Notes under the pieces: generated by a model | The model's database searches: none | What the model was told of the DNA's origin: nothing | The model's input: the letters and a program-made list of their open reading frames with translations, nothing else | Shown: piece after piece, positions 5,051 to 30,716 of the stretch | Layout of the letters: every line of letters starts with the position of its first letter | Numbering within the stretch: position 1 is the first letter of the stretch | From: Nitrospinota bacterium | GTDB taxonomy: Bacteria; Nitrospinota; Nitrospinia; Nitrospinales; JACRGP01 | Direction of reading: 5' to 3' | Length of the DNA stretch: 51,765 bases | Assembly: GCA_016207065.1 (NCBI GenBank) | Contig: JACQQK010000093.1 | Location: 1 to 51,765 of the forward strand | Translations under genes and position numbers: made by a program

Positions 5051-8000
5051 TTAGAGGTCCATTTTGCCTGTCAGGTAGAAGGGAGCCCAGAAGTAAGGCG
5101 AGGGATAGTCCCGCATCAATTTCAGCTGGGCGTTTTTAAGGGCCAGGGCGGCTCCCTTGGGGAGGTCGTCGTAAAAATATTGCATGAGCTTGTAGGTCGA
5201 TTCGTCGGACACTTTCCACAGGCTGGCGACCACTCCGCCCGCCCCGGCATATAGGAACGCGCGGTTCAGGCTCTGGACTTCGTCGCCCCCGCCGAGTTTC
5301 CCCAGGCCGGACTGACAGGCGCTCAAGACCACCAGCCGGGAATTCATGGTCAGGGAATAGATTTCGAACGTCTCCAGGTCGCCGTCCTCCATCGGGTCGT
5401 TGGCGAGGAGGATGGCCGATTTGAGCGGGTCCCTGGCGTTATACCGCCCGTGGGCGGCAAAGTGGACGATCGCCGTATCAAGCAGGTTTCCCCCTTTTAT
5501 CGAGGACTCCGTCGCTTGTTCTCCGGTCAACACCGTTTTCCGGGGGAAGTTCCGGGAAATGGCCTTGATCTCCTGCTCCGCGAATTCCAGTTCCAGTCCC
5601 TTTTTCTCTCTTTTGGGGTTGCCGAGCGCCAGGATTCTGTCCTTGTTGGCGGTAATTTCCTTGTCCAGATAAAACAGGCTGGAAGCGTTCGGCAGAATGG
5701 AAATGGCGTAATCCTGGACCAGAAAACGGTTTCCCGCCAGGGGCAGGCTGGAAAAAGGAAGATAATGAATGGGGCCGGAGGGGACGACAAGCAGTTTGTC
5801 GATGGAAACCAATTTGCTTTTTATCGGGTCCAGGAGGACCGCGGAGAGGTTTTTCCCCAGGTCCAGCCGGAGGGTCTCCTGTCGCGAGGCGATGGCGTCG
5901 CGGTAATCCTGGACCAGTTGCGCCAGTTCGGCCGACCCGGCGTCCGTAGCCACGGCGGTAATGGCGTCGCGCGTCGCGACCCAGACAAGAGTCCTTTTCT
6001 CTCCCGCGTAATATGAGATCAAAGCGGTCCCCGGTCGAAGAGAACCCATTATTTTTTTTATGGGGACCGCGGCGACGGAGGAAGTGGCGGCGTATTCCAG
6101 GCTTTGGTCCTTGATTTTCTCCAGGACGTCGCGATTCTCCTTCAACAACCGCTTGAACTTTCGATTGGCCGCGTTCCGGTCCTCGTCCTTGAGAGTTTTC
6201 AGGCTCCTGCCGACGACTTCGATCTGGCCCCGCAGGTCTTTTTCCTTTTGGACCAACGCGGGGTCCACGGTTTTTTTCGCCTTCGGGGAGCGTCCCGCCA
6301 GCATGTCCAGAAAAGCCCGGCCCTTGGACCGCTCGAGATAGTCGAAACCGTCGGCGTATTCGCCCATATCAAACAGAAGGTCGATCGCCCGCCCGTAAAC
6401 GTCCTGTCCCGAGGAGGCGAACATTTGCCGGACGGTGTCCTCGCGCAATCTGGACCGGGTGAGTTCCAGGGCATTTACGGCTCGCGCGAGATATTTTCTG
6501 GCTTCAGGATAGTTGTTGTTTTTTATCAGGGCCCCGGCTATCTCGTGGCTCGCGCGCCAGACCACATCGACGGCGCCGAGGTCCTCCGCTTCGGCGAGGA
6601 ACGCGTTGTATTCCTCAAGATCGCGGCCGCTTATTTTTCTGTCCGGCATGAGGAACTCCGTTTTATATCGAAGGGCCCGGTTTAAGAGCAGGCCAAAGGG
6701 GCGCCCGCTCGACAGGAAACTTTCTCTTCCCAGGTCGAAGTGGCGAAACGCTTCGTCGAATTTTCGCATCTCGCCCAACAGCGCCCCCCGGACGGTGTAG
6801 TAATGGCCGATGCCTTCGAGGAGGTCCCCATCGGCGCGATAAAAAACGCCCCTCATGGGATCGTTGACTTGTTTCAAAACTTCCTGGATCAGCTTGCCAA
6901 CCTCGTCAAGTTCCTCCAGACCCTTTTGGTGGTTTTTCGCGAAATAATGGGCGGAGGCGAGGTTGATGCGGGAATGAACGATGGCTTTGCTTTTCCTGAC
7001 CCATTGGTATAACTGATCGCTGTCGGGAACCTTGACAGGTCCGGAGGGCGGGACAAATCCTTTGTGAGTCGCCAGGGCTTCCAGATAGAGTTCGGAGGCT
7101 TTTTCGGGATTCCCGGAAAAGAGGTGGACGTCCCCCGCGCTGGCGTCGATTTCGGCGGCATCTCCGTTCGTTCGCTCGCCGATTTCCCTGGCTTCGCGCA
7201 GAATGTCGAGGGCGGAGGAGTATTCCCCCGTTTCCGTCAGGAGCCAACCGATCCTCTCCATGCAGAGAAGGACCTGCTTCCGCTTGTTCTCCGCCTTGAA
7301 TTTTTCCAGAAGCTTGCGGTACTCCGCGACGCCTTTTTCGTAGTCTCCGCGGGCCACGAGGTTTTCCGCGGCGCGCGTGTCGTTAAGCCAGACGAACTGG
7401 AAGGTCATGGCTTCGCCGAGCGCCAGTCCGACGCGGCTTTTCCCCTGGACGAAGCTCTCTTTTGCCAACGCCAGGTACCGCGTTGTCTCGTCAACCTGTC
7501 CCGCTTCTTTATAATAGGCCCCCAGAAAAAACCGGATGAATCCCATCCCCTCGTGATGGCTGGAGTCGGACTTCAGCATCATGCCGTAGAGAGGATGGTC
7601 CATCACCTTGAAAATGTCGCTCATGAGGGCTTCGGCTTTCTTGAGGTTTTCGCGCGCCGGGCCCATTTCCCGGTCGAACAAGAGTTTCGCGCCAAGATTG
7701 ACGCGCGCGTGAATTATGGCCTTGGCCTTCCGGATGAGTTCGGACAGTTCTTTCTGGCTGGGAGCAGACTTGAACGAGGTGGGAAACACGAAGTTTTCGT
7801 GGGCGTTCAAGGTCCTGTAATAATACTCGCCAGCTCGCTTGCCGTCCCCCGAAAACAGATAAATGTCCCCAATATCGGCGTCGATTTCCGCGGCGTCGCC
7901 GTTCAAGCGAGCGCCGAGGGGATAGGCTTCGAGAAAAAACTTCAGGGCCTTGCCGTAGTCGCCGTTTTCCTTGAACAGCCACCCCATTCTCTCCAGGCAA

Positions 8001-8254
8001 AAGAGCTCGCCCAATTCGTCTTTTTGCGCGCGGTACTTCCTAAGGCCCTTTTCGTACTCGACAAGCCCCCTTTCGTAGTCTCCATCCGAGATGAATTTTT
8101 CGGCTCGAAGCGTCTCTTCGGACAAATCTACGGCATATTGAGTCGATTGCAGGGAAGCGCAGGAGGGGAGGAAAAAAGAACAACAAAACAGATAAAACAG
8201 AATAACAAGTCCGCGGAAAGCCGGAGAAGAAGGGCGCGAAAGCGGATTTTTCAT
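5051..8254 (-). CDS. TPR-CHAT caspase-like protease, predicted lipoprotein
   Basis: A 1067-residue protein. Residues 1-32 form a lipoprotein signal ending in LPSC, with C32 as the acylated Cys. Two related TPR blocks follow, about 46-295 and 296-525: GDAAEID and LFSG motifs recur at about 118 and 364, indicating an internal duplication. More TPR-like helices reach about 655 and a coiled-coil reaches about 715. The CHAT domain (about 720-1065) has the catalytic pair H935 (HFAAHG) and C980 (LSACQSG), so it should be an active cysteine protease of the caspase/separase clan. The predicted extracytoplasmic lipid anchor is notable, because well-studied CHAT effectors are cytoplasmic. First gene of the CHAT-CHASE2-FecR operon, with a promoter-like sequence just upstream and GAGGCG as ribosome binding site. 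Confidence 0.88.
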   Translation of the reverse strand: MKNPLSRPSSPAFRGLVILFYLFCCSFFLPSCASLQSTQYAVDLSEETLRAEKFISDGDYERGLVEYEKGLRKYRAQKDELGELFCLERMGWLFKENGDYGKALKFFLEAYPLGARLNGDAAEIDADIGDIYLFSGDGKRAGEYYYRTLNAHENFVFPTSFKSAPSQKELSELIRKAKAIIHARVNLGAKLLFDREMGPARENLKKAEALMSDIFKVMDHPLYGMMLKSDSSHHEGMGFIRFFLGAYYKEAGQVDETTRYLALAKESFVQGKSRVGLALGEAMTFQFVWLNDTRAAENLVARGDYEKGVAEYRKLLEKFKAENKRKQVLLCMERIGWLLTETGEYSSALDILREAREIGERTNGDAAEIDASAGDVHLFSGNPEKASELYLEALATHKGFVPPSGPVKVPDSDQLYQWVRKSKAIVHSRINLASAHYFAKNHQKGLEELDEVGKLIQEVLKQVNDPMRGVFYRADGDLLEGIGHYYTVRGALLGEMRKFDEAFRHFDLGRESFLSSGRPFGLLLNRALRYKTEFLMPDRKISGRDLEEYNAFLAEAEDLGAVDVVWRASHEIAGALIKNNNYPEARKYLARAVNALELTRSRLREDTVRQMFASSGQDVYGRAIDLLFDMGEYADGFDYLERSKGRAFLDMLAGRSPKAKKTVDPALVQKEKDLRGQIEVVGRSLKTLKDEDRNAANRKFKRLLKENRDVLEKIKDQSLEYAATSSVAAVPIKKIMGSLRPGTALISYYAGEKRTLVWVATRDAITAVATDAGSAELAQLVQDYRDAIASRQETLRLDLGKNLSAVLLDPIKSKLVSIDKLLVVPSGPIHYLPFSSLPLAGNRFLVQDYAISILPNASSLFYLDKEITANKDRILALGNPKREKKGLELEFAEQEIKAISRNFPRKTVLTGEQATESSIKGGNLLDTAIVHFAAHGRYNARDPLKSAILLANDPMEDGDLETFEIYSLTMNSRLVVLSACQSGLGKLGGGDEVQSLNRAFLYAGAGGVVASLWKVSDESTYKLMQYFYDDLPKGAALALKNAQLKLMRDYPSPYFWAPFYLTGKMDL

Positions 8255-8543: not shown

Positions 8544-9122
8544 TTAAATCTTGTTTTCCCTGGTCAGGTCCTGCTCCAGGATCTCGCAGATGACGTGCCC
8601 GATGGCGATGTGCGCTTCCTGGATGCGCGCGGTGTCCCTGGAGGGAACGACGATGGCCACTTGGACGCAATCTTTCGCTTTCCCGCCCTCGTTGCCGAAC
8701 AGGCCGATCGTCGCGGCCCCGAGTTCGTTGGCCCGTTTCAGGGCGCGGACGACGTTTTCGGAATTCCCGCTCGTGCTGATCCCCAGGACCGCGTCGCCTT
8801 TCCGGGCAAAGGCCTCGACCTGCCTCGAAAAGACGGAGGCGTATTCGTAATCGTTGCCGATGGCGGTCAACGTGGAGGTGTTCGCCGTGAGGGCGATGGC
8901 CGGGAGGGCCTTCCGTTCCTTCTTGAAACGGCCGACGAGTTCCGCCGCGATGTGTTGCGCGTCGCTCGCGCTTCCGCCGTTGCCCATGAGCAGTAGCTTG
9001 CCGCCGTTGGCGAGGCTCTCCTTGATCAGCTGGGCGGCTTTGTATATCTCTCCGGACAGGGTTTCGGCGACGACCTTCTTGAGTTCGGCGCTGGCCAGCA
9101 AATCCTTTTTAATGCGTTCCAT
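8544..9122 (-). CDS. gmhA: Sedoheptulose-7-phosphate isomerase (GmhA, SIS domain)
   Basis: A 192-residue SIS-fold isomerase converting D-sedoheptulose 7-phosphate to D-glycero-D-manno-heptose 7-phosphate, the first step of ADP/GDP-heptose synthesis for LPS core or S-layer glycans. The phosphosugar-binding signature GNGGSASDAQHIAAEL starts at residue 47, with H57 and E61 as predicted zinc ligands. A second SIS strand GISTSGNSENVVRAL and the C-terminal QEAHIAIGHVICE, with Gln and His metal ligands, complete the active site. Length is normal. It is the last gene of the minus-strand sugar operon, 51 bp after the carbamoyltransferase. No other heptose-pathway genes are in the window, so the product may serve the linked glycan rather than core LPS. 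Confidence 0.9.
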   Translation of the reverse strand: MERIKKDLLASAELKKVVAETLSGEIYKAAQLIKESLANGGKLLLMGNGGSASDAQHIAAELVGRFKKERKALPAIALTANTSTLTAIGNDYEYASVFSRQVEAFARKGDAVLGISTSGNSENVVRALKRANELGAATIGLFGNEGGKAKDCVQVAIVVPSRDTARIQEAHIAIGHVICEILEQDLTRENKI

Positions 9123-9173
9123 TTCGCTCCAGGAATTAATAGTTGAAGAAAAACATCCGCGACGCTTTGCATT

Positions 9174-10988
9174 CTAATCCAGTTCGAACTCCTTTTTCCA
9201 GTCGCTATCCTCGGCGAGAGGCGGTTGGTCGAGTTTGTCGAGGACGAAATTTTCCATGACGAGGCAGTCCATCTCCGTGCGCATGAAACATCGATAGGCG
9301 TCCTCGGGCGAGCAGACGATGGGTTCGCCGCGCACGTTGAACGAGGTGTTGATGAGGAGCGGGCAACCCGTCTCCTCCTCGAACGCCTTGATCAGGTCAT
9401 GGTACCGGGGATGGGCTTCCCGGCCCACCGTCTGTATGCGGGCGGAATAATCGACATGCGTGACGGCCGGGACCCGCGACCGCGGGACATTCAGCAGGTC
9501 GATGCCGAACAATTTTTTCTGCTCCTCGGTCATTTCTCGCTTCTTGTCCTCGCGGACGTCCGCCACCAGGAGCATATAGGGACTGGAGGAATCCATATCG
9601 AACCATTCGTGGACCTTCCCCTCCAGCACGGAGGGGGCGAAGGGCCGGAACGATTCGCGGTGTTTTATTTTCAGGTTCATGACGGACTGCATTTTCGGGC
9701 TTCGCGCGTCGCCGATGATGCTTCGGGCTCCCAGGGCGCGCGGGCCGAACTCCATCCGCCCCTGGAACCAGCCGATCACTTTCTCGTCCTTCAACCGGCG
9801 CACGGTTTCCCGGATCAACTCCCGGTCGTCGAGCCGCCGGTAAGGAATTTTGTTGCGGTCCAAGAATCCCTTGATCCCGTCGTTGTCGTAGCGCGGTCCC
9901 AGACAGGCTCCTTTCATGAAGTCTTTCCCGTTGACGCGTCTTTCCTTTCCGAGGACCTGATGCCAGACGAACAGGGCGATGCCAAGCGCCCCGCCGGCGT
10001 CGCCGGCGGCGGGCTGGATCCAGATGCCGTCGAAGATTTTTTCCTTGAGGATTTTCCCGTTGCCCACGCAATTCAAGGCCACGCCGCCCGCGAGACAGAG
10101 ATTTTTCAGGCCGGTCAACTGGCGCGCGTGACGCGCCATCTTCAGCATGATCTCCTCGGTCACGGCCTGGAGCGACGCCGCGATGTCCATTTCCCGCTGG
10201 GTCAGCCGGGACTCCGGCCGGCGGGGCGGCCCCCCGAACAGGGCGTGAAATTTCTCGCCGGTCATGGTCAACCCCGAGACGTAGTTGAAATATTCCAGGT
10301 CCATGCGGAACGAACCGTCGTCGCGCAGGTCCAGCAGACGCTCCCGGATTAAATGCGCGTATTGGGGACGGCCGTAAGGGGCCAGACCCATCACCTTGTA
10401 CTCGCCGCTGTTGACCTTGAACCCCAGATAATAAGTGAACGCGGAATAAAGCAGTCCCAGCGAGTGCGGGAACCGCAGTTCCTTGAGCATCTCCACGCGG
10501 TTGCCCCGCCCGGCGCCGATGCTGGCGGTGGCCCATTCGCCGACGCCGTCCATCGTCAACACGGCCGCCTCCTCGAAAGGCGAGGGAAAAAACGCGCTGG
10601 CCGCGTGCGATTCGTGATGCTCCGCGAACAGGACCGGGCCCCAGTAGCCCAGGTTCTCGCGGATGTTCCGGCGGGTCCACAATTTCTCCTTGAGCCACGG
10701 GGGAAGGGCCTTGAGATAGGACCGCAAGCCTTTCGGGGCCACGCTCAGGTAGGTCTCCAGGATCCGCTCGAACTTGATGAACGGTTTGTCGTAAAACCCG
10801 ACGTAATTAAGGTCCTTCGCTGAAATGCCGGCTTCCTTGAGGCAGTACGCGACGGCCCGGGATGGAAAATTTTGATCGTGTTTCTTGCGGGTGAAGCGCT
10901 CTTCCTGCGCGGCGGCGGCGATTTCGCCGTCGACGACCAGGCAAGCGGCGGAATCGTGGTAAAACGCGGAGATCCCCAGAATATTCAT
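9174..10988 (-). CDS. NodU/CmcH-family carbamoyltransferase
   Basis: A 604-residue protein of the usual family length. The N-terminal Kae1-like ATPase domain opens with MNILGISAFYHDSAACLV and contains the metal-binding motif HHESHA (H124, H125, H128) and the acidic motif TMDGVGEW (D147). The C-terminal half carries WFQGRMEFGPRALGARSI, the signature of the carbamoyltransferase C-terminal domain. Relatives transfer a carbamoyl group from carbamoyl phosphate, through carbamoyl-AMP, to a hydroxyl of a sugar or natural product. Between an aminotransferase and gmhA it most likely carbamoylates a surface sugar; the acceptor cannot be read from sequence. A hairpin lies immediately upstream of the start codon and may affect translation. 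Confidence 0.88.
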   Translation of the reverse strand: MNILGISAFYHDSAACLVVDGEIAAAAQEERFTRKKHDQNFPSRAVAYCLKEAGISAKDLNYVGFYDKPFIKFERILETYLSVAPKGLRSYLKALPPWLKEKLWTRRNIRENLGYWGPVLFAEHHESHAASAFFPSPFEEAAVLTMDGVGEWATASIGAGRGNRVEMLKELRFPHSLGLLYSAFTYYLGFKVNSGEYKVMGLAPYGRPQYAHLIRERLLDLRDDGSFRMDLEYFNYVSGLTMTGEKFHALFGGPPRRPESRLTQREMDIAASLQAVTEEIMLKMARHARQLTGLKNLCLAGGVALNCVGNGKILKEKIFDGIWIQPAAGDAGGALGIALFVWHQVLGKERRVNGKDFMKGACLGPRYDNDGIKGFLDRNKIPYRRLDDRELIRETVRRLKDEKVIGWFQGRMEFGPRALGARSIIGDARSPKMQSVMNLKIKHRESFRPFAPSVLEGKVHEWFDMDSSSPYMLLVADVREDKKREMTEEQKKLFGIDLLNVPRSRVPAVTHVDYSARIQTVGREAHPRYHDLIKAFEEETGCPLLINTSFNVRGEPIVCSPEDAYRCFMRTEMDCLVMENFVLDKLDQPPLAEDSDWKKEFELD

Positions 10989-10994
10989 GCGGTT

Positions 10995-11010
10995 TGAGGA
11001 ATGATCCTCA
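10995..11010. promoter_or_regulatory. Hairpin directly upstream of the carbamoyltransferase start
   Basis: TGAGGA (10995-11000) and TCCTCA (11005-11010) form a perfect 6-bp stem with a 4-base loop, ending 6 bases before the ATG at 10988. In the minus-strand transcript the only Shine-Dalgarno-like word, GAGGA, lies in the first stem arm, 16 bases from the ATG. Translation may therefore depend on this structure. Confidence 0.3.
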
Positions 11011-11051
11011 TTTTGTCGTTATCCCCGTCATTGTAGTATTTCTGGCGGGGA

Positions 11052-12581
11052 TCAGGCAAAGAATTCCTTGATGACGCGGACCGCATATTCCTGCCGTTCC
11101 GGGGTCAATTCGGGGTAGATGGGCAGGGCCAGCGTTTCGCGCGCCGCCTTCTCGGATTCCGGGAAATCCCCTTCCCGGTATCCCAGCGAGGCAAAACATT
11201 CTTGCAGATGCAACGGCAGAGGATAGTAAATCTCCGTCTGCACCTTTTTTTCCTGTAAAAACTTCCTCAGATCGTCCCGGCGATTTTTCACGCGCACCAC
11301 GTATTGGTTGTAAACGTGGCGCGGGACCAACTCTTGCGGCGTTTGGACATGGTCCATCAGCCCGGCCTCGGACAACAACCGGTCGTAGCGGAATGCGTTT
11401 TGCCTCCGCTTTTCGGTCCAGCCTTCGAGGTAGTCGAGCTTGGCGCAAATCGCCGCCGCCTGCAGGGTATCCAGACGGAAATTCCCGCCCACCACTTTGT
11501 GATAATACTTGGGTTTGGCGCCGTGCGTCCGCAGGACGACCAGTTTTTGGTAGAACTCCTCGGACGACACCGTCACCATACCCGCGTCGCCCAGCCCGCC
11601 GAGGTTCTTCGTGGGGAAAAAGGAAAAACAGCCATAGTCGCCCAACGACCCGGCCCTGCGGCCCTGGTACGAGGCGCCGATGGCCTGCGCCGCGTCTTCG
11701 ATCACGGCCAGCCCGTGTTTTCTCGCCGTTTCCAGGAGCGGTTCCATGTCCGCGCATTGTCCGTAGAGGTGGACGGGTATGATGGCCTTGGTTTTTTTCG
11801 AGATCCTGCTTTCGACCTGGTCCGGGTTCAAGTTGCAGGTCGCGGGGTCGATGTCCACGAACACGGGCCGCGCCCCAACCCGGACGATCGACCCCGCCGT
11901 GGCGTAAAAAGTGAACGGCGTGGTGACGACCTCGTCGCCGGGGCCGACATTGGCGGCCATCAGGGAAACCAACAGGGCGTCCGTCCCCGAGGAGACGCCG
12001 ACGGCGTAACGGCAGTGGCAATATTGGGCGATTTTTTCCTCCAAGCGGGCGACGTGGGGACCGAGGATGAAATGTCCCGACCGCAGGACCTCGGCCATTT
12101 CCCGCTCCATGTCGAACAGGACCTCGTGATAGGACGCCGGGATGTCCAGCAAGGGAACGCGGTCGTCCGATTTGTCCCCGGCTTTCAGAATTTCCAGGAC
12201 CTCGCCGGGCGTGCGCGCCTTGATATCGGCGCCCTTGAACGTTTCCGGCTTCGATGTCGCCACGCCGTCCAGTCCCAAGGCGCGGACGGCCTTTACGGTC
12301 ATGGCTGGACCGAAATCCAGCCCGGAGGAATCCAGGGACTCATGGATGTCCGCGGCCGTCTGAGACAGGATGGCGATCCCCTCCAGCAGGCGCTTCAATT
12401 CCGTTCTCGCGGCGCGGTCGTCCCCGTTTTGCCGGAGGTCCTCGTAGAGCGCCGGTATGGACGAGGAAAGGACCCAGCCTTTCAGTTCTTTTTTCCGGCA
12501 CCGCTCCAGGACCTCGGCTTCCAGGCCGGATTTTTTTTGCAAGGCCCTCATTAGAAGATCGGTATTCAACAAATATTGCAT
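11052..12581 (-). CDS. PIN-like domain fused to DegT/DnrJ/StrS sugar aminotransferase
   Basis: A 509-residue two-part protein. Residues about 145-509 are a complete PLP-dependent nucleotide-sugar aminotransferase (about 365 residues is the family norm): substrate loop SSGTDALL (about 198), E295-D296 in AVIEDAAQA, and Schiff-base K325 in FFPTKNLGG. Residues 1-135 resemble a PIN domain: the start MQYLLNTDLLMRAL, the conserved-type E47 (SIPALYEDL), then LGLDGVATSKPETFKG and RTPGEVLEIL. The first catalytic Asp of PIN nucleases is Asn here (N6, with D8 nearby), so nuclease activity is doubtful. One ATG and one unbroken frame cover both parts. Second gene of the sugar operon. The PIN assignment is by pattern only; an intact aminotransferase is much more certain. 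Confidence 0.82.
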   Translation of the reverse strand: MQYLLNTDLLMRALQKKSGLEAEVLERCRKKELKGWVLSSSIPALYEDLRQNGDDRAARTELKRLLEGIAILSQTAADIHESLDSSGLDFGPAMTVKAVRALGLDGVATSKPETFKGADIKARTPGEVLEILKAGDKSDDRVPLLDIPASYHEVLFDMEREMAEVLRSGHFILGPHVARLEEKIAQYCHCRYAVGVSSGTDALLVSLMAANVGPGDEVVTTPFTFYATAGSIVRVGARPVFVDIDPATCNLNPDQVESRISKKTKAIIPVHLYGQCADMEPLLETARKHGLAVIEDAAQAIGASYQGRRAGSLGDYGCFSFFPTKNLGGLGDAGMVTVSSEEFYQKLVVLRTHGAKPKYYHKVVGGNFRLDTLQAAAICAKLDYLEGWTEKRRQNAFRYDRLLSEAGLMDHVQTPQELVPRHVYNQYVVRVKNRRDDLRKFLQEKKVQTEIYYPLPLHLQECFASLGYREGDFPESEKAARETLALPIYPELTPERQEYAVRVIKEFFA

Positions 12582-12614
12582 GGGATCGTATCGGGAATGA
12601 ACGTTGGAGGAAAC

Positions 12615-12630
12615 GGTCCGGGAACGGACC
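12615..12630. other. Intercistronic hairpin after the sugar dehydrogenase stop
   Basis: GGTCCG (12615-12620) and CGGACC (12625-12630) form a perfect 6-bp stem with a 4-base loop. It ends one base from the dehydrogenase stop codon and 33 bp before the next gene. With no T-run it is unlikely to terminate fully; it may protect or process the mRNA. Confidence 0.35.
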
Positions 12631-12631
12631 C

Positions 12632-13936
12632 TCAGGCTTTGACGATTTTATCCGATCTGATTTTCGCGCAGGCGTTGCGCGTATCCACCACGATATTGGA
12701 CCGCTCGACGATGGCTGGATAATCGTACTCCGAATGGTCGGTCAAGATCACGGTTATATCAAACCTTTCCAGGTTTTTCAAAGAGGCGCTGGCTTTGCCC
12801 ACGAATTGCGGGTATTCCCGCTTGGGGCCGACCGCGGGGATGTAGGGATCGTTGTATTCCACCGCCGCGCCCAGCCGTTCGAGAACGTCCATGATCTTGA
12901 AGCTGACCGATTCGCGGTCGTCGTCCACGTCCTTTTTGTAAGCCAGGCCAAGGAGCAGGACTTGACTGCCCTTCACGCTTTTCCCGGCGGCGTTCAGCGC
13001 GTGAAAAATTTTTTGGACCACGTAATCGGGCATGGAAACGTTGATCTCCCCCGCCAGCTCGATGAAACGCGTGGAGACGCCGTATTCCCGCGCCTTCCAA
13101 GTCAGGTAAAAGGGATCGATGGGGATGCAGTGCCCGCCGAGGCCGGGACCGGGATAAAAGGGCATATACCCGAACGGCTTGGTTTTGGCGGCCTCGATCA
13201 CCTCCCAGATGTCGATCCCCATCTTGTCGAATACGATTTTGAGTTCGTTGACCAGCGCGATGTTCACGGAGCGGAAGATGTTCTCCATCAGTTTGACGGC
13301 CTCGGCCACCATGGCGCTCGATACCGGGACCGTTATGGAAACGATGGAGGAATAGAGGGCGTTGGCGGCTTCCATGGCGTAAGCGGTGTCCGCGCCGATC
13401 ACCTTGGGGATATTGACGGTGTTGTACTGCTTGTTGTTGGGGTCCTCGCGCTCGGGGGAAAAGGCGATGTAAAAATCCTCGTTGGCTTTAAGCCCGCTCC
13501 CCTGCTCCAGTTCCGGACCCAGCGCCTCCCGGGTCGTGCCGGGATAGGTCGTGGACTCCAGCACGATCAGCTTGCCTTTGGCCAGATGGGGCGCGATCTG
13601 GCGGGCGGTGGAAACGATGAAGCTCATGTCCGGCTCCCGGTTGTGGTTGAGCGGAGTCGGAACGCAGATGAGGACGCAGTCCAAACTGGCGACCGAGGAA
13701 AAATCGCCGGTCGCGGCGAACCGTCCCGTGGCGTTCAAGCCGCGGATGGATTCCGCGGGGATATGGCGGATATAGCTTTCGCCCTTGGCCAGCCGGTCGA
13801 TTTTGGACCCGTCGATATCGAGCCCGACGACATGAAAACCCGCCTTGCCGAACGCGATCGCCAGGGGAAGCCCCACATAGCCCAGACCGACCACTCCGAC
13901 CCGGGCCGTCTTATCTTTGATTTTTTCAAGCAACAT
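12632..13936 (-). CDS. UDP-N-acetylhexosamine 6-dehydrogenase (WbpA-type)
   Basis: A 434-residue nucleotide-sugar dehydrogenase that oxidises C6 of a UDP-hexose in two NAD-dependent steps to the uronate. The NAD-binding fold carries GLGYVGLP (about 17-24). The middle domain has MENIFRSVNIALVNE, and the catalytic Cys lies in GPGLGGHCIPIDPFYL. The C-terminal UDP-binding domain has LLGLAYKKDVDDDRES. The lysine-poor LGGHCIP form and overall layout resemble WbpA/WecC (N-acetylhexosamine) more than UDP-glucose dehydrogenases. I choose ATG 13936, preceded by GAGGA, over ATG 13966, which lacks a ribosome binding site. First gene of the operon, so it probably provides the uronic acid precursor that the fusion aminotransferase then modifies. 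Confidence 0.85.
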   Translation of the reverse strand: MLLEKIKDKTARVGVVGLGYVGLPLAIAFGKAGFHVVGLDIDGSKIDRLAKGESYIRHIPAESIRGLNATGRFAATGDFSSVASLDCVLICVPTPLNHNREPDMSFIVSTARQIAPHLAKGKLIVLESTTYPGTTREALGPELEQGSGLKANEDFYIAFSPEREDPNNKQYNTVNIPKVIGADTAYAMEAANALYSSIVSITVPVSSAMVAEAVKLMENIFRSVNIALVNELKIVFDKMGIDIWEVIEAAKTKPFGYMPFYPGPGLGGHCIPIDPFYLTWKAREYGVSTRFIELAGEINVSMPDYVVQKIFHALNAAGKSVKGSQVLLLGLAYKKDVDDDRESVSFKIMDVLERLGAAVEYNDPYIPAVGPKREYPQFVGKASASLKNLERFDITVILTDHSEYDYPAIVERSNIVVDTRNACAKIRSDKIVKA

Positions 13937-14156
13937 CGATTGTCCTCGGTAAATTTTTGTTTCCATCCGATAGCGCCATCCCGTCCCAGCCCCAGCGGGG
14001 CGCGGCCGCTCCCGGGATGGACATTCGCGCGGGTCTGGAAAACCGCGCCGCTCCCGGAGGACGGCGGGAGCAGTTTGCCTGAATCTTTTACCGCCGTCAA
14101 GGAAAGCTGGGCAGGCCTTTTTCCAACCTATTCAACCGCGCGAAAAATACGCTTAT

Positions 14157-20918: not shown

Positions 20919-24487
<3,569 letters not shown>

Positions 24488-24491
<4 letters not shown>

Positions 24492-26251
24492 TGGTCGTGG
24501 GTAGCCGACGCTTTTTCCGCTTCGGCTTTCACCGTGAAACTGTTTTTCGCGGCGAACCGTTCTCCGGGCCTCAAGCCGCGGAGGACCTCGACGAATTCGC
24601 CGTCGCTTTTCCCCAGTTTCAACGGCCGGGCCTCGAAAAAATCGCCGTATTTGACGAACGCCGCCGGCCCGTCGCGCCAGGTTTGGATGGCCTCCGCGGG
24701 CACGGCGAGGGGAACGGGATTTTCCTCCAGGAGCAGTTCCGCCGTCACGAAGGCCCCTGGCCGCCAGCGCCCTTCGGGATTGGGAACGACGACGCGGCCC
24801 GTGACGGTCCGGGTCCTCTCGTCGACGATCGAACCGAGATAGTCGAGCGTCCCCTCCGCTTCCAGCCCAAGGTTTTCGGAATACGTCCTGACCCTTTGCC
24901 CCAACCGGGCGTTTTTTACGTCCTTCGCGGGAATGGCGATATTCACCCACACCTCGGAAAGGTCGGCGAGCAGGAAAATGTCCGCGTCCTTCCTTACCGC
25001 CTCTCCCGCCGCGACGTGTTTCCGGACCACGACGCCGTCGATGGGCGCCCGCAATTCATAGCGCGTGAAGACGCTCCCCGTCTGGTTTGGCAAGGCGGCA
25101 ATCTCCGGTTGGGCCAAACCCAGCGCCAGAAGTTTTTGCCGAGCGGTTTCCAGGTCCAGCCCGGCGAGTTCCGCCGCCCTTTTTTTCTGGAGAAGGTTCC
25201 ACGACCCGTCATAGGCCGTTTTTTCGCGAAGAGAAAGATATTTCGCCTCGGCGCTTTTGTATTCCTCGAGGGCAATCTGGTATTCGGAGCCGGAGGAAAT
25301 TTTCTTTTCGAAAAGCCCTTTTTCCCGAAGATAGACGGACTTCGCGAGTTTCAATTTCGTATAGGCGGGGAGCAGTTGCGCCCGGCTTTCGCCGATCGTC
25401 AGCCCTTGCAGTTGCCGGTAGATCTCGTCCAGATCGCTTTCCCGTTCCAGGACTTCGAGCATTTTAGAGGCGTTCTCGAAAACGGCCGTCTCCCGCTCGA
25501 TGTCGGCTTTCGCGAGGTTGGCGCGTTTCAAGGCGGCGAGATAATCGCTTTTCGCGTCGGCCAGTTCGCGGCTTTCCAGGACGGCGATGATTTCGCCTCG
25601 ATGCACCGGCTCGCCCAACGCTTTATTGACCTTCTTCACGACCCCGTCCAGCCGGGGGACCACATGGGCGACTTTTTCCTCGTTGAGCCCCACTTCGCCG
25701 GGCAATACGAGCGCGTTTTTCAGTTGCGCGGGGCCGGCGGCCGCGAGCGTAATCCCCGCGTTTTTCATGGCTTCCTCGGAAAGCTCCGCCCTGGCTTCCA
25801 CTTGGGAGTATTCCCAACGATAAGAATTCCCTTTCCATTGCGCTTGAATCTTTACGTCGAAAGAATGCGGCTCCTCAACGGTCTTGTCTCCCAGAAGGTA
25901 GTTCCCCGACGGTTTGAAATGGACCGCGTCAACGCGGTCGAGCCGATGGAGTTCGATGGTCAGGCTTACTTCGTCCAGGGGGACGCTTTTCCCTTCCTCC
26001 CTTGCGATATAAACCCGGAATTGAGGCGGTACGCCTTGTTCGAAGATGACGACCTCGACCCGCAAGTCATCCTTTGAAAAAAGTTTCCCGCCATGAGGTC
26101 CTTTGCGAACGTCCGGAGCCCTTGCGGTTTCCACTGAAATTCCCTTGGAGCGGTCGACGACGGTTGAGCGCTCCGTCCGCGGAATGACCCAGGAAAAAAC
26201 GGCCCCTATTGCAAGGACCGCCAGGATGGGGAGAGTGATTTTGATTTTCAT
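24488..26251 (-). CDS. czcB: Metal efflux membrane fusion protein, CzcB type
   Basis: A 587-residue periplasmic adaptor of the HlyD/CzcB family linking the RND pump to the outer-membrane channel. It has a short N-terminal membrane anchor (about 5-24), an extra N-terminal domain (about 50-170) as in long CzcB proteins, a barrel-sandwich lipoyl half-motif (LDGVVKKVNKALGEPVHRGE), a long coiled-coil hairpin (about 255-385), and a second half-motif (APIDGVVVRKHVAAGEAV). It ends in His-Asp-His. The start overlaps the czcC stop as ATGA. The stop codon lies inside the terminal repeat of an inserted miniature element, so the original C-terminus may have been different. Confidence 0.88.
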
Positions 26252-27585
26252 GGCCGGGGTTCGCCTCCGGAATTTTGCGGTTCGGGACCGATGGCGGCCA
26301 AGGGTTCGCCCGTCAAGCGTTCGACATCGGCCGCCGCTTTGTGATAGTTCGCCAACGCCTGGACATATTTGCCCCGGGCCTCGAACAAAGTCCTTTGACT
26401 GTCCAATACGTCCAGGAGGCCAAACTTGCCGAAACGGTAACCCTCGTTGACGGCGTCGAACGCGCCTTGGGCTCCCGGCAGGACCTTTGTTTTAAGCGAC
26501 ATCGCCTCCGAATAAGCGGACCGGAGCGCGTTGTAGGTTTCCGCCAGGACCCTGGCCGCGTGAATTTCAGCCGCGCGTTTTTCCGCCTCGGCCTTGACCA
26601 GCCGGTGGCGGGCCGCTTCCGTCGCGCCCTGGTTGCGATCGAAAAATTGCAGAGGGACGGAAAATCCAAAAACGACCGCGTTGTCGCCGCTTTCCTCCAG
26701 ACGCCGATAACCGCCCTGGACCTTGATATCCGGGACCGCTTTCGCAAGTTCCATGTCCACGACGGCTTGCCGTTGTTTCAATTCCGCCGCCCAACGGGCG
26801 AGGTCGGGGTTGTTGGCCAGACGCCGGGCCAAGGCTTCAAAAGGCGGGACTTCCGCGACCAAATCCAAAAGCCCCGTTGCCGATTGAAACCGCGGGGCGG
26901 TTTCTCCCCATGTGGCCGACAAGGTCCCGCGGGCAGTGTCCAGTTCCCGCCTTGCCCGCTCCAGCTCAATATGCGTGTTGGCAAGCGCCACCTGGGCCTT
27001 GGTTTCCTCGATGGGAGGGACCTTTCCGGAGCCCGCCCTTTCGGCAACCGCCTTTAAAGTCCTTTCCGCGAGGCCCGACAATTCCTCCGCCAGCGAAATC
27101 CCGTTTTGGGCCTTGAGCACATCGGTAAAAGCTTTTGCGACCCGCGTCAGGACATCCATGCGCTTTGTCTCGTAATCCCAATGGGCAAGCTCTTGCGAAA
27201 GGGAACCGGCCCGTACCCGCGCGGCCCTTTTCCCTCCCAACTCGATCAACTGGCCGAGGCGTAGGGTCGTTTGCGACCGGTCAAACCCGCGAAACCCGCC
27301 CGACCCGGCCGCGTCCTCCGCTTCGACCGCCAATTCGGGATTCGGAAGCAAACCCAATTGCAACGTCCTGGCTTCGCGCGAACGCTTCTCCCAGGAAAAC
27401 GACTCAAGCTCCGGGTTATGAATTAATGCGGCGGCGACAGCCTGTCGCAACGTGATGGTTCCGGCCGGCCTTCCGGTTTCCTCCGGAGGCGAAACCGGTT
27501 CCGCGAAATTTTTTAAAGGCAATAACATCAGGGTGAACAATAGGATCAGTAGTCCGGTTTTGACCGGCTTTGCCGCTCTTTTCAT
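26248..27585 (-). CDS. czcC: Outer-membrane efflux channel, CzcC/TolC family
   Basis: A 445-residue outer-membrane factor with a signal peptide (MKRAAKPVKTGLLILLFTLM) and two OEP repeats of long alpha-hairpins. Typical pieces are LRQAVAAALIHNPEL near the N-terminus, LPNPELAVEAE, and FSVPLQFFDRNQG in the second half. It forms the trimeric channel for the RND pump. ATG at 27585 is chosen because GAGG precedes it and the signal peptide begins there. The stop overlaps the czcB ATG. Upstream, 134 bp separate it from the His-rich gene, with GC-rich short repeats but no clear terminator. Confidence 0.88.
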   Translation of the reverse strand: MKRAAKPVKTGLLILLFTLMLLPLKNFAEPVSPPEETGRPAGTITLRQAVAAALIHNPELESFSWEKRSREARTLQLGLLPNPELAVEAEDAAGSGGFRGFDRSQTTLRLGQLIELGGKRAARVRAGSLSQELAHWDYETKRMDVLTRVAKAFTDVLKAQNGISLAEELSGLAERTLKAVAERAGSGKVPPIEETKAQVALANTHIELERARRELDTARGTLSATWGETAPRFQSATGLLDLVAEVPPFEALARRLANNPDLARWAAELKQRQAVVDMELAKAVPDIKVQGGYRRLEESGDNAVVFGFSVPLQFFDRNQGATEAARHRLVKAEAEKRAAEIHAARVLAETYNALRSAYSEAMSLKTKVLPGAQGAFDAVNEGYRFGKFGLLDVLDSQRTLFEARGKYVQALANYHKAAADVERLTGEPLAAIGPEPQNSGGEPRP

Positions 27586-27719
27586 ATTGAAACCTCGAAA
27601 TTTAGAAGCCGGGACCGCGCGGTTTTTTTCAAAGGCGAATTGGGTCTCCGCGAAAGAAAAAGGCTCCACGCCGCAAGCAAATTGCCCGCGCGGCAAAAAA
27701 TCAGTAAGGGATTTGAAAC

Positions 27720-28187
27720 TTAAATGAAAAGAGAGGGGGGAGAACGTTCCTGGCGCGTGTCTTTATAGGCAGGGAAGGGAACAATAAAAACGCCGGCAAG
27801 GACCGAATGGAAGGAAGGGCGTTCTGGAATTATGAACGAGGCGAAAACATTTTCAAGCGCGACGGCTTGAAAATGTTTTTCCGGTTGAATGCCGGTTTTA
27901 TAAAGACTTACCTCGTAATTGTCGGAATCGTGTTCCGGCGCGGAATGGGGATGATGATGCTCCTTGTCCAACCCGGGGCCGGAGGGATGCAGGTTGATGG
28001 AATGGGCAACACTCTCGAACTCGTGCGAATGGAAATGGCCTTTATGCTCGTGAGGTTGTAATGCGCCTTCGTGGCCATGTGCGTTGCCGGGATGATAATG
28101 AAGAAATGGGAAAAAGAAAAACTGAAATCCCCACAGCAAAATCACCACGAACGCAACGCCGGGATTCTTCCTTAAAAAATCGACCAT
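27720..28187 (-). CDS. Small His-rich membrane-anchored protein, putative periplasmic metal buffer
   Basis: A 155-residue protein: one N-terminal TM segment (about 10-28), then a loop with 18 histidines overall, many clustered (KGHFHSHE, EHHHPHSAPEH). It precedes czcCBA in the same direction and probably belongs to the operon. The topology puts the His-rich part in the periplasm, where it may bind the exported metal or act as a sensor. I see no named family. ATG at 28187 is the start nearest the TM helix; an earlier in-frame ATG at 28244 is less likely because it adds a charged leader. A perfect 15-bp inverted repeat lies within its 3' half. Confidence 0.65.
   Translation of the reverse strand: MVDFLRKNPGVAFVVILLWGFQFFFFPFLHYHPGNAHGHEGALQPHEHKGHFHSHEFESVAHSINLHPSGPGLDKEHHHPHSAPEHDSDNYEVSLYKTGIQPEKHFQAVALENVFASFIIPERPSFHSVLAGVFIVPFPAYKDTRQERSPPSLFI
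27844..27879. repeat. Perfect 15-bp inverted repeat inside the His-rich gene
   Basis: AAAACATTTTCAAGC (27844-27858) is repeated as its exact complement GCTTGAAAATGTTTT (27865-27879) with a 6-base spacer. On the minus strand it encodes EKHFQAVALENVF, so the frame is kept. A stem this long would form a stable hairpin in the mRNA ahead of czcC. It is AT-richer than its surroundings. Confidence 0.7.
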
Positions 28188-28338
28188 GGGAGGCTTCTTT
28201 TTCTCGTGCCGGTTGAGATGTAAAAAATTATGGCCCAAAACCAAGGGTCAAGGCAACTATTTGCGGCGAAACGCCGGATGGGCTCGACTCGGATTGTCCT
28301 CGACAACGCGTATTCGCCGCCAAAAGAGCCCACTGGGC

Positions 28339-28358: not shown

Positions 28359-30356
28359 TCAATGTTTGGCTTCCGGTTTCTCCCCGCCCGCGGACGGGTT
28401 GAGGCGGTGTTCGAGTTCCCGGATGTTTTCGCGTAGTTGGTTGACGGCCAGCCGGGTCTCGTCCTGGAGCGACTCCCTCGTGAATTTCTGGCCTTTGTAG
28501 GGACCCAGGCCGGAGATTTTCTTGCGGATGACGTCCAGTTTCTCCTCCAGGACCTGTCCGCGTTTCTCGCTGAAGCTTTTGGTTATGGCTCCCTTCAGGC
28601 CCTCGCCTTCGTAATACCGGGTGATCGCGGTCAGCATCCTCTTGCTCGAAAGATAATCCTTGCCCGCTTTCCAGTCGTCGATGGCCTGGAGGACTTCCTT
28701 CTCGATCAGGTCGGCGATGGCCTTGTAGTCCTTTTCGTCGACCAGGTCGTGGATCTCCCCCGGTTGCGAGGCCGCGGCGATGCTGAAATCCAGCGTCTGG
28801 TCCGCGCCGTTCAGCTTGAGGGCCTTCATGTTGCCTTCGACCTCGGACGGGCTGAGACGGGAGTTCCAGACTTGCAGGAGGAACTCGATGTTCGGCAGTT
28901 TTTCGAACTTGTAGTTCCCGTTTTTATCGGCCAGCGTGTAGTAGCCGTTGGGGACCACGAAAATGACGCCGATCATGTCCTTGTGCATGTTGCACCGCAG
29001 GACCACGGGGCCGGGTTCGGTGAGCTTGACGCTCTTGGAGGAACCGGCGGCCATGGCCCCCAGGTTGAACTGGTTGTTCAGCGACTTGGAGTAAATATTG
29101 TGGACCTCCAGGTCTTCGTTGACGAACGCGATGCTGGCCCCCACCTGGACGACGGAATGGCCGGGCACGAATTGCAGGTTCTTTTGCCGGATGGAGACGT
29201 TTTGCGTTTTTTGTCCGGGGACCCGCAACTTGTTTTTGGCTTCCATGACGACCACCGTGCCGGGGTCGGCCGGTTGCCCGTTGAACAACACCCGGCCCTT
29301 GACGCCGGTCGAATCTTTCTCCTCCTTGGTCGAGGACCCTTCCATTTTATGGTCGGAGCCCTCGGACTTTTTGGGGTCTTCAGGCAACTTGGGGGCGGAG
29401 TCGAGTTTGGCCGTTTGTTCGCCGCCCGTCTCGGGCTTGCTCTCCGGCTGGTCCTTGAGTTTGTAACGCCCCAGGGCCTTCAGCATCTGGACCACGAAAG
29501 GCTGTTCGAATTGTTTGTCCAATTCGATGGCGCGCTCGAAATGAGGGGCGGCCTCCTCCACCTTGTTGCGTATGCTGAGGACGACCGCCAGGTTGAAATG
29601 CGCCTGCGCGAAATTGGGGTCGATCTCCAGCGTCTTGCCGTACATTTCGGTTTCCTTGACGTAATCCTTCTTCTGTCCCAAGGCCTTGCCCATGTAATTG
29701 TAGGCCAGATAATGGCGGGGGTTGACCTTGACGGTCTTTTGGAACAGGTCGATCGCCCCGTCCGCGTTGTTTTCCTCCAGCTTGGACATCCCCCAGTTGA
29801 AGAGGATCTCTTCGTCGTTGGGGGCCAGTTCCAAGGCCCGCTGGAACCGCTTGTTGGCGCCCTCGAATTTTTTTTCCATCCGCAGGGCCGCCCCCCAGAT
29901 GGAGAAGACCTCGGGGGAATCGGGGCTCGATTGGGCCGCTTTTTGAAACTCGATCTCGGCCAGTCCGAACTGACCTTTCTCCGCCAGCCGCATGCCCTTG
30001 GCGATGCTCTCCACGGTCTCGCGGGGAAGTTTGGGTTGCGGCGCGGGCGGGGCCGTGTCCGCGGCCTTTTTCACCAAGGCGTCGCGGTCCCGCTCCAAGG
30101 TGTCGGAAATCGTTTTTACCGCCCCGTTCGGGTTCGGGGCCGGCTCGTTGGACTCGGTCTTCTTGGCGGGCGGTTTCTGCTTGAATTTGTCGTAAGGCTC
30201 CAGTTTACCCGACGGGGTGAAGACATAAATCAATCCGCAGGCGAAAATCAAGACCAGGACCACCGCCAGGAAGGGTTTGATGAACTGACGGATACCCGCG
30301 GGGTGTTGGTCTTTCCCCGCTACACGGGCGCTTCGATTCTTTTTCTTCTGGCTCAT
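28359..30356 (-). CDS. Membrane-anchored TPR protein with cupredoxin domain
   Basis: A 665-residue protein: basic N-terminus, one TM helix (about 25-45), Pro/Lys-rich linker, four to five TPR repeats (about 115-300), a charged linker, a beta domain (about 350-490) and a helical C-terminal domain (about 535-650). The beta domain resembles methylamine-utilisation-type plastocyanin domains and holds a full type 1 copper set: H419 (EVHN), C455, H458 and M461 (RCNMHKDM). It should therefore sit outside the cytoplasm and bind Cu for electron transfer or storage. The C-terminal domain is not one I recognise. FmdB is encoded 85 bp upstream on the same strand. Its location behind the efflux operon suggests metal handling but may be chance. 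Confidence 0.75.
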   Translation of the reverse strand: MSQKKKNRSARVAGKDQHPAGIRQFIKPFLAVVLVLIFACGLIYVFTPSGKLEPYDKFKQKPPAKKTESNEPAPNPNGAVKTISDTLERDRDALVKKAADTAPPAPQPKLPRETVESIAKGMRLAEKGQFGLAEIEFQKAAQSSPDSPEVFSIWGAALRMEKKFEGANKRFQRALELAPNDEEILFNWGMSKLEENNADGAIDLFQKTVKVNPRHYLAYNYMGKALGQKKDYVKETEMYGKTLEIDPNFAQAHFNLAVVLSIRNKVEEAAPHFERAIELDKQFEQPFVVQMLKALGRYKLKDQPESKPETGGEQTAKLDSAPKLPEDPKKSEGSDHKMEGSSTKEEKDSTGVKGRVLFNGQPADPGTVVVMEAKNKLRVPGQKTQNVSIRQKNLQFVPGHSVVQVGASIAFVNEDLEVHNIYSKSLNNQFNLGAMAAGSSKSVKLTEPGPVVLRCNMHKDMIGVIFVVPNGYYTLADKNGNYKFEKLPNIEFLLQVWNSRLSPSEVEGNMKALKLNGADQTLDFSIAAASQPGEIHDLVDEKDYKAIADLIEKEVLQAIDDWKAGKDYLSSKRMLTAITRYYEGEGLKGAITKSFSEKRGQVLEEKLDVIRKKISGLGPYKGQKFTRESLQDETRLAVNQLRENIRELEHRLNPSAGGEKPEAKH

Positions 30357-30441: not shown

Positions 30442-30684
30442 CTATAACTCCGACCTCAACTTGGGAATGGGCAGTTTGAAAACGTTCTTGTTGGGGTAAT
30501 CGTTCATGGTCGCCGGACCGGATTTGGATGTCCGCTGGACATTCGACGCGAAAGTGGAAAATTTTCGCTCGACGTTGCCCGATCCGCACTCGTCGCACCG
30601 GGTCTCTTCTTTTTTGACGCTGGCGGATTGGAGAAGGGTGAAGTCTTTCTGGCAATCCTGGCAATGGTATTCGTAGAGCGGCAT
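30442..30684 (-). CDS. FmdB-family zinc ribbon protein
   Basis: An 80-residue protein starting MPLYEYHCQDCQ, the standard FmdB opening, with zinc ligands C8, C11, C30 and C33 (RCDECGSG). FmdB-type proteins are small putative regulators of unknown target. ATG at 30684 is the family start; the frame extends to a TTG at 30702. The gene is divergent from dcd and probably shares the intergenic control region; the TPR-cupredoxin gene follows it. Confidence 0.85.
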   Translation of the reverse strand: MPLYEYHCQDCQKDFTLLQSASVKKEETRCDECGSGNVERKFSTFASNVQRTSKSGPATMNDYPNKNVFKLPIPKLRSEL

Positions 30685-30716
30685 GATGTCAGCCGACGCC
30701 AACGGAAAATATGGGG

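Follow-up and report, generated by a model that had tools for sequence, protein, structure and literature searches.

The window, that is, the whole stretch of DNA analysed, is the 51,765-nt contig JACQQK010000093.1 of a Nitrospinota bacterium (GCA_016207065.1), and all coordinates are positions in it. It contains a gene for an anchored TPR-cupredoxin protein with a helical C-terminal domain (Table 1). This domain resembles FTR1-N, the label used here for the periplasmic helical domain that precedes the FTR1/OFeT iron permeases in one to three copies.

Table 1. Features at the TPR-cupredoxin locus, in window positions.
Feature	Position	Strand	Remarks
TPR - cupredoxin - FTR1-N-like protein gene	28359..30356	-	ORF, 665 aa, ATG start
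N-terminal transmembrane anchor, residues 29-47	30216..30272	-	mean hydropathy 2.79 in window protein
TPR block, residues about 118-295	29472..30005	-	Pfam TPR_2, E 5e-20
Conserved linker motif KxEGSDHKMEG, residues 330-340	29337..29369	-	column conservation
Cupredoxin domain, residues 345-530	28767..29324	-	ligands H419, C455, H458, M461 (CX2HX2M loop)
C-terminal helical domain, residues 533-655, FTR1-N-like	28392..28760	-	profile match 543-643
FmdB-type zinc-ribbon gene	30442..30702	-	Pfam Zn_ribbon_8, E 7.7e-16; directly upstream of the TPR-cupredoxin gene
CusA/CzcA-type RND pump, adaptor, outer-membrane factor, small His-rich protein	21064-28244		between the TPR-cupredoxin gene and CysS

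A strong hydrophobic segment near the N-terminus was found in 40 of 41 readable rows, and a second one in none of the 41. With +3 ahead of the anchor and +4 behind it, the flanking charges in the window protein do not settle its orientation; the C-terminal bulk of the protein would lie on the periplasmic side. Several TPR models scored above their Pfam cut-offs, so the protein counts as a TPR protein, and the first-pass annotation, which had described a TM anchor and a TPR array in one chain, was correct in this respect. Mean column identity was 0.73 in both the TPR block and the cupredoxin domain and 0.79 in the C-terminal domain. The linkers (residues 48-117 and 296-327) reached 0.44, and the short stretch around the linker motif (residues 328-342) 0.77; in a 44-row alignment its residues K330, E332, S334, H336, M338, E339, and G340 were at least 95% conserved. 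Searching the DNA pattern of this motif gave 21 matches in 19 of 64 genomes of the window's order, 17 of them at the TPR-cupredoxin gene. In four genomes (G003:C38, G034:C11, G041:C30, and G062:C43) the pattern occurred away from the known place of the gene.

Upstream, in divergent orientation, lies a dCTP deaminase gene, followed by ORFs read as ScpB and a pseudouridine synthase. Of the 30 loci with enough upstream DNA, 13 have an FmdB-type relative no more than about 700 bp upstream, which makes the association partial. Downstream, most relatives with sufficiently long contigs carried CysS, DUF2851, and ORFs read as CysD, CysN/C, and a ferredoxin; where a locus extends far enough, CysS usually follows, L053 and L066 being exceptions, and Pfam confirmed CysS, DUF2851, and the GTPase/APS-kinase protein in the window. 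The CzcCBA-type efflux cluster was found downstream in only two of 34 loci (the window and L039), some of which end too early to show it, and was taken as a local heavy-metal efflux insertion. As the conserved neighbours are housekeeping genes, the neighbourhood was rejected as functional evidence. None of 31 upstream regions contained a Fur-like site with at least 14 of 19 matches to the Fur-box consensus, and the mean equalled that of shuffled sequences; the controls of this test were weak, giving 9/19 before the G065 iron cluster (139 bases) and 14/19 before the organisms' own FTR1. With no iron genes among the conserved neighbours identified and no Fur-like site upstream, a role in iron metabolism is one that we infer.

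Elsewhere in the window, a CHASE2-adenylate cyclase adjoins a 1067-aa TPR-CHAT protein (2975-8254), possibly a signalling or protease pair, and a sugar cluster (8544-13966) encodes a SIS-domain protein, a carbamoyltransferase, a DegT-type aminotransferase, and a UDP-sugar dehydrogenase.

Copper site of the cupredoxin domain

When the whole protein was scanned, the Pfam models Cupredoxin_1 (22.3 of the required 27 bits) and Copper-bind (20.2 of the required 21.2 bits) both remained below cut-off, and Copper-bind rose to 22.2 bits, above its cut-off, when residues 345-665 were scanned alone. The AlphaFold2 model of residues 345-655 showed a beta sandwich plus helices with a mean pLDDT of 84. Comparing this model with the PDB by Foldseek placed amicyanin first (E 9.9e-8), and a NirK, plastocyanin, and pseudoazurin were among the other leading matches. 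Structure prediction had been proposed as a check in the first-pass annotation (for residues 350-650); the model shows a cupredoxin sandwich and a helical C-terminal part.

In an alignment of 44 rows (the window protein and 43 non-redundant orthologue ORFs), C455, H458, and M461 were invariant in all rows, and H419 was a histidine in 43 of them, the remaining row having a gap. The type 1 set named in the first-pass annotation is found at the positions given there. As the ligands are kept in the orthologues, the loss in close relatives that the annotation had set beforehand as speaking against it was not seen. Type 1 copper sites are electron-transfer sites. Fold and ligands together support a complete type 1 site, which would be loaded with copper. 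Amicyanin, the best fold match, has the same CX2HX2M loop; it is, however, a small soluble carrier for methylamine dehydrogenase.

Relation of the C-terminal domain to FTR1-N

The AlphaFold2 model of the C-terminal domain consisted of helices (mean pLDDT 92), in agreement with the helical domain of the first-pass annotation, where it was called unknown. Searches in Pfam and NCBIfam returned only noise for it, and Foldseek and VIA-align only generic four-helix bundles. The NarQ/NarX/McpN sensor bundle, a tempting candidate for a nitrite oxidiser, reached Z-scores of 9.8-10.5, tied with talin, catenin, and designed bundles.

To compare the domain with FTR1-N, copies were taken from eight permeases outside the window's order, of which L132, L141, L142, and L143 carry two or three copies and L125, L139, L140, and L144 carry one. 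They were split by eye into an A set, made up of the first copies together with those of the single-copy permeases L140 and L144, and a B set, made up of the last copies together with those of the single-copy permeases L125 and L139; none of these 12 copies had a Pfam or NCBIfam model above cut-off. A profile of the six A copies, none of them from the TPR-cupredoxin family, matched all 34 family ORFs in a set of 2174 ORFs, with E-values from 7e-11 to 1.4e-4 (8.6e-8 for the window protein), while the best other ORF had an E-value of 4.3. Background ORFs, shuffles, and reversed sequences served as controls: real domains scored 25-44 bits, 33 reversed sequences at most 12.5, and shuffles at most 10.4 (944 of 990 reported). 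A mixed A+B profile was weaker on the window copy (E 5e-5). Aligning the family with all twelve copies by hhalign gave a probability of 96.6% (E 5.3e-10, 101 columns). The twelve-copy profile, run on 387 genomes with no more than 12 candidates scored in each, recovered the family in 55 of 61 carrier genomes (E 1e-8 to 8e-4); in six carriers, G000 and G001 among them, it found no copy at E 0.01.

The outcome depended on the choice of comparators. A first comparison, in which most copies came from permeases of the order itself, gave no significant match (hhalign probability 1.3%; 2.9% with a mixed set). Six copies chosen by eye gave 71.5%, and among the 2174 ORFs their profile gave the window protein an E-value of 2.5, the best non-family ORF 0.41, and the best family member 6e-4. 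The clear match was obtained with the copies from further genomes, split into A and B. PDB sequence searches with both profiles led to designed-protein, coiled-coil, or otherwise implausible matches; two designed chlorophyll-dimer proteins, which the FTR1-N profile matched at E 4e-14 by way of repeats some 30 residues long, were taken to reflect helix composition.

On these sequence comparisons the C-terminal domain is very probably homologous to the FTR1-N domain of FTR1-type iron permeases, so that the domain called unknown can be placed as a divergent FTR1-N copy. The protein itself has no PF03239 match and, in 41 rows, no multi-pass hydrophobic pattern of an FTR1 permease. It shares about 100 residues of homology with the domain of the permeases, of the A subtype, but is not fused to a permease and has lost two acidic residues.

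A tree was built from 42 domain copies (12 from the family, 15 from permeases of the order, six A, six B, and three others), and in it the 12 family rows grouped with the six A copies, separated from the B copies and the order's permease copies by a split with support of 99/95. Forks within the A side were weaker (86/65 to 94/76), and the stem of the family was long. All 33 family members scored higher with the A profile than with the B profile, as did 11 of 27 permease copies of the order. The domain of the TPR-cupredoxin protein thus belongs, as judged from tree and profiles, to the first-copy (A) subtype of permeases with tandem copies. FTR1 ORFs of the order, some of which are cut by contig ends, had exactly one FTR1-N copy in 27 of 28 cases, the 28th, the fragment L133, having none.

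Three acidic residues (in the contexts FE, GME, and LE) were invariant in the 12 FTR1-N copies. In the family, E604 was retained in 33 of 33 members, and the GME glutamate was replaced by lysine (K588) in all 33; at the position of the FE glutamate 18 members had D, 12 A, two E, and one Q. The loss of two of three invariant acidic residues makes iron binding by this domain unlikely. The domain therefore probably does not bind iron now and may have kept a docking role.

The order of domains is also reminiscent of EfeO, in which a cupredoxin is joined to a helical peptidase-M75/imelysin domain and is tied to FTR1-type uptake (PMC9174327, PMC3143127). Unlike EfeO, the TPR-cupredoxin protein has canonical type 1 ligands, a single short bundle, a TPR block, and a membrane anchor. 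Similarity to M75 was weak (E 0.14 for the C-terminal domain; E 0.003 for one of the 12 FTR1-N copies), and EfeO membership was rejected, as M75 scored 12.1-12.5 bits against a cut-off of 23.5 and the C-terminal domain in the window has no HxxE.

Distribution and relatives

A pattern scan for orthologues, limited in reach to close relatives, gave 33 loci; the titles of 30 named Nitrospinota, Nitrospinae, Nitrospinia, Nitrospinaceae, or Nitrospina, and those of the other three Nitrospirae or Nitrospirota. A profile of the C-terminal domain identified 61 carriers of the family among 64 genomes of the window's order (Nitrospinota) and no carrier among 13 others of the class. The order genomes without a match were G028 (91% complete), G035 (83%), and G049 (78%), and every carrier had one copy except G025, with two matches. 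In the order, 28 genomes are at least 90% complete: FTR1 was present in all of them, the TPR-cupredoxin family in 27, and a strong NxrB-type match in 17; G028 has FTR1, and the TPR-cupredoxin gene was not found there. FTR1 was seen in 52 of the 61 carriers, and the nine without it were all at most 83% complete. As all these genes are order-wide and draft genomes lose repeated genes, co-occurrence with FTR1 fits a link and proves none. The NxrB-type match (E < 1e-30, under the model's cut-off) occurred in 20 of 61 carriers, where genome gaps can explain absences; it was seen in none of four genomes of the window's genus and genus g2, yet in G003 of the same taxonomic family, and here too gaps are possible.

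Outside the phylum, the combination of cupredoxin and FTR1-N was not seen in 310 genomes (FTR1-N profile, no more than 12 candidates each). Other matches to the twelve-copy profile were FTR1 permeases, one ORF each in G378 and G287 (655 and 658 aa), and a few matches at E > 0.002; among the matches read, which were those other than the two ORFs and the matches at E > 0.002, there was no further cupredoxin fusion. Just upstream of FTR1, G006 and G009 have a cytochrome-type ORF (L128:343-1461 and L146:213-1280) that carries an FTR1-N copy of its own, an arrangement that looks like the usual long permease divided between two ORFs. A 223-aa ORF in G162 with an FTR1-N domain and without a permease part adjoins a P19-like ORF (L170:2400-3700).

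Stand-alone cupredoxins of about 210 aa have the same domain by profile, without TPR or FTR1-N domain. Within the stretch read, FTR1 was near none of 14 such loci, chosen from a larger set of profile matches. In ten of the 14, all in the order (L199-L204, L207, L209-L211), a lipoprotein-like ORF of about 240 aa and a sensor-like ORF of about 650 aa lay alongside, and the three genes, with roles assigned by eye, may form a copper- or redox-sensing unit. The ORFs at L206:1-5400 are repetitive and resemble a CRISPR array read in frame. The only locus seen with a stand-alone cupredoxin next to FTR1 was that of G065, a relative in the class (L132); this cupredoxin, of the same sequence family, has Leu at the axial Met position, and its neighbours include a PF10634 iron-transport gene (E 2e-48) and an FTR1 carrying two FTR1-N copies. 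This compact iron-uptake locus (L132:1-6001) comprises the PF10634 gene, a porin-like ORF, FTR1, the cupredoxin, and an ORF reading as Fur-like.

Possible roles of the protein

We tentatively favor an anchored cupredoxin redox protein that docks on the iron-permease machinery, a reading possible but short of an even chance. One helix would hold the protein in the inner membrane with some 615 residues in the periplasm, and the TPR block would recruit a partner. The type 1 copper site could accept and pass on single electrons, while the C-terminal FTR1-N-like domain would dock on the order's own FTR1, whose single copy adjoins its membrane part. The protein might then act as redox partner for the oxidation of Fe(II) coupled to uptake, as has been proposed for copper proteins in other FTR1 systems. 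Of these steps we infer the periplasmic side, copper loading, docking on FTR1, and electron transfer from iron. The yeast FTR1 permease requires a multicopper oxidase (Fet3p-Ftr1p), and a copper-bound partner is proposed for bacterial FtrABCD (PMC11966278). FtrB and Fet3p-Ftr1p are thus like the present protein in that, in the working model, a copper protein serves an FTR1-type permease; FtrB differs in its predicted copper ligands (D118/H121), which are not a type 1 set, and no TPR or FTR1-N domain is named for it there (PMC11966278). In favor of docking are the homology and A subtype of the C-terminal domain, the single FTR1-N copy of the order's permeases, the joint occurrence with FTR1 in the most complete genomes, and the G065 locus. 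Against docking speak the acidic losses, the missing Fur-like site, the housekeeping neighbours, the 14 stand-alone cupredoxin loci where FTR1 was not seen, the Leu at the axial position in G065, the FTR1 of G028 in a genome where the TPR-cupredoxin gene was not found, and the extra FTR1-N copies in G006 and G009. In a related scheme, which we consider unlikely, the iron importer would be split: a first-copy FTR1-N would have come off the permease and, once joined with a TPR tether and a type 1 copper protein, would provide the docking half and the electron acceptor in trans. Since sole A-type copies exist in permeases (L140, L144), A is not simply a missing half. This, together with the order's copies not being cleanly B by profile score, lowers confidence in docking and splitting alike.

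The protein might instead be a general periplasmic respiratory electron carrier, somewhat unlikely in our view, in which the TPR block ties the cupredoxin to a bc-type complex, an oxidase, or nitrite oxidoreductase. The C-terminal domain would then be a docking fold put to new use. The intact type 1 site in an amicyanin/plastocyanin-like fold and the order-wide occurrence as a single copy (except in G025) agree with this, and the loss of two acidic residues argues for domain re-use. Copper carriers have been proposed for Nitrospina electron transport, the cupredoxin genes meant there being located inside the NXR cluster (PMC3578206); no NXR cluster was seen near the TPR-cupredoxin gene. The conserved neighbours identified among the ORFs that recur between loci are not respiratory, and the strong NxrB-type match is limited to a third of the carriers (20/61), although genome gaps can explain this. 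The first-pass annotation had suggested an electron carrier in a membrane complex and had named co-occurrence with respiratory complexes as a check. The suggestion fits but is unproven, as the neighbours are not respiratory, and the check was equivocal, with NxrB-type matches in 17 of the 28 most complete genomes vs. FTR1 in all 28, a difference that gaps may explain.

Decidedly unlikely is an assembly or scaffold factor for periplasmic metalloproteins, whose TPR block and FTR1-N-like domain bind partners and whose copper is structural or regulatory. The TPR block is as conserved as the cupredoxin domain (0.73 each) and the C-terminal domain more so (0.79), and the acidic residues are lost, all in its favor, but that all four copper ligands are conserved points to a redox role. 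The copper chaperone of the first-pass annotation found no specific support. Such a chaperone or copper-resistance protein, working with the CzcCBA-type genes next door, is very improbable: the RND efflux genes that immediately follow the gene in the window and in L039 would fit it, as would the HxM motif of the linker, yet the cluster is downstream in only two of 34 loci, and a buried type 1 site is ill-suited to metal hand-over.

Among the open PMC papers listed for Nitrospina copper and FTR1 proteins and for TPR-cupredoxin fusions, we found no description of the TPR-cupredoxin-FTR1-N-like protein. It is a new domain combination, not new chemistry, and the chemistry to be expected is known. 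The analysis gives a placement to a domain for which no Pfam or NCBIfam model scored above cut-off. The window's order includes marine nitrite oxidisers, and ocean nitrite oxidisers have a high iron demand. If the importer were split, oxidase-dependent iron uptake would feed electrons from iron into the copper/heme pool of nitrite oxidisers. An FTR1-N-related domain on an anchored copper protein hints at a link between copper and iron, and with a canonical electron-transfer copper site and an FTR1-type domain in one protein, this copper-iron coupling becomes testable.
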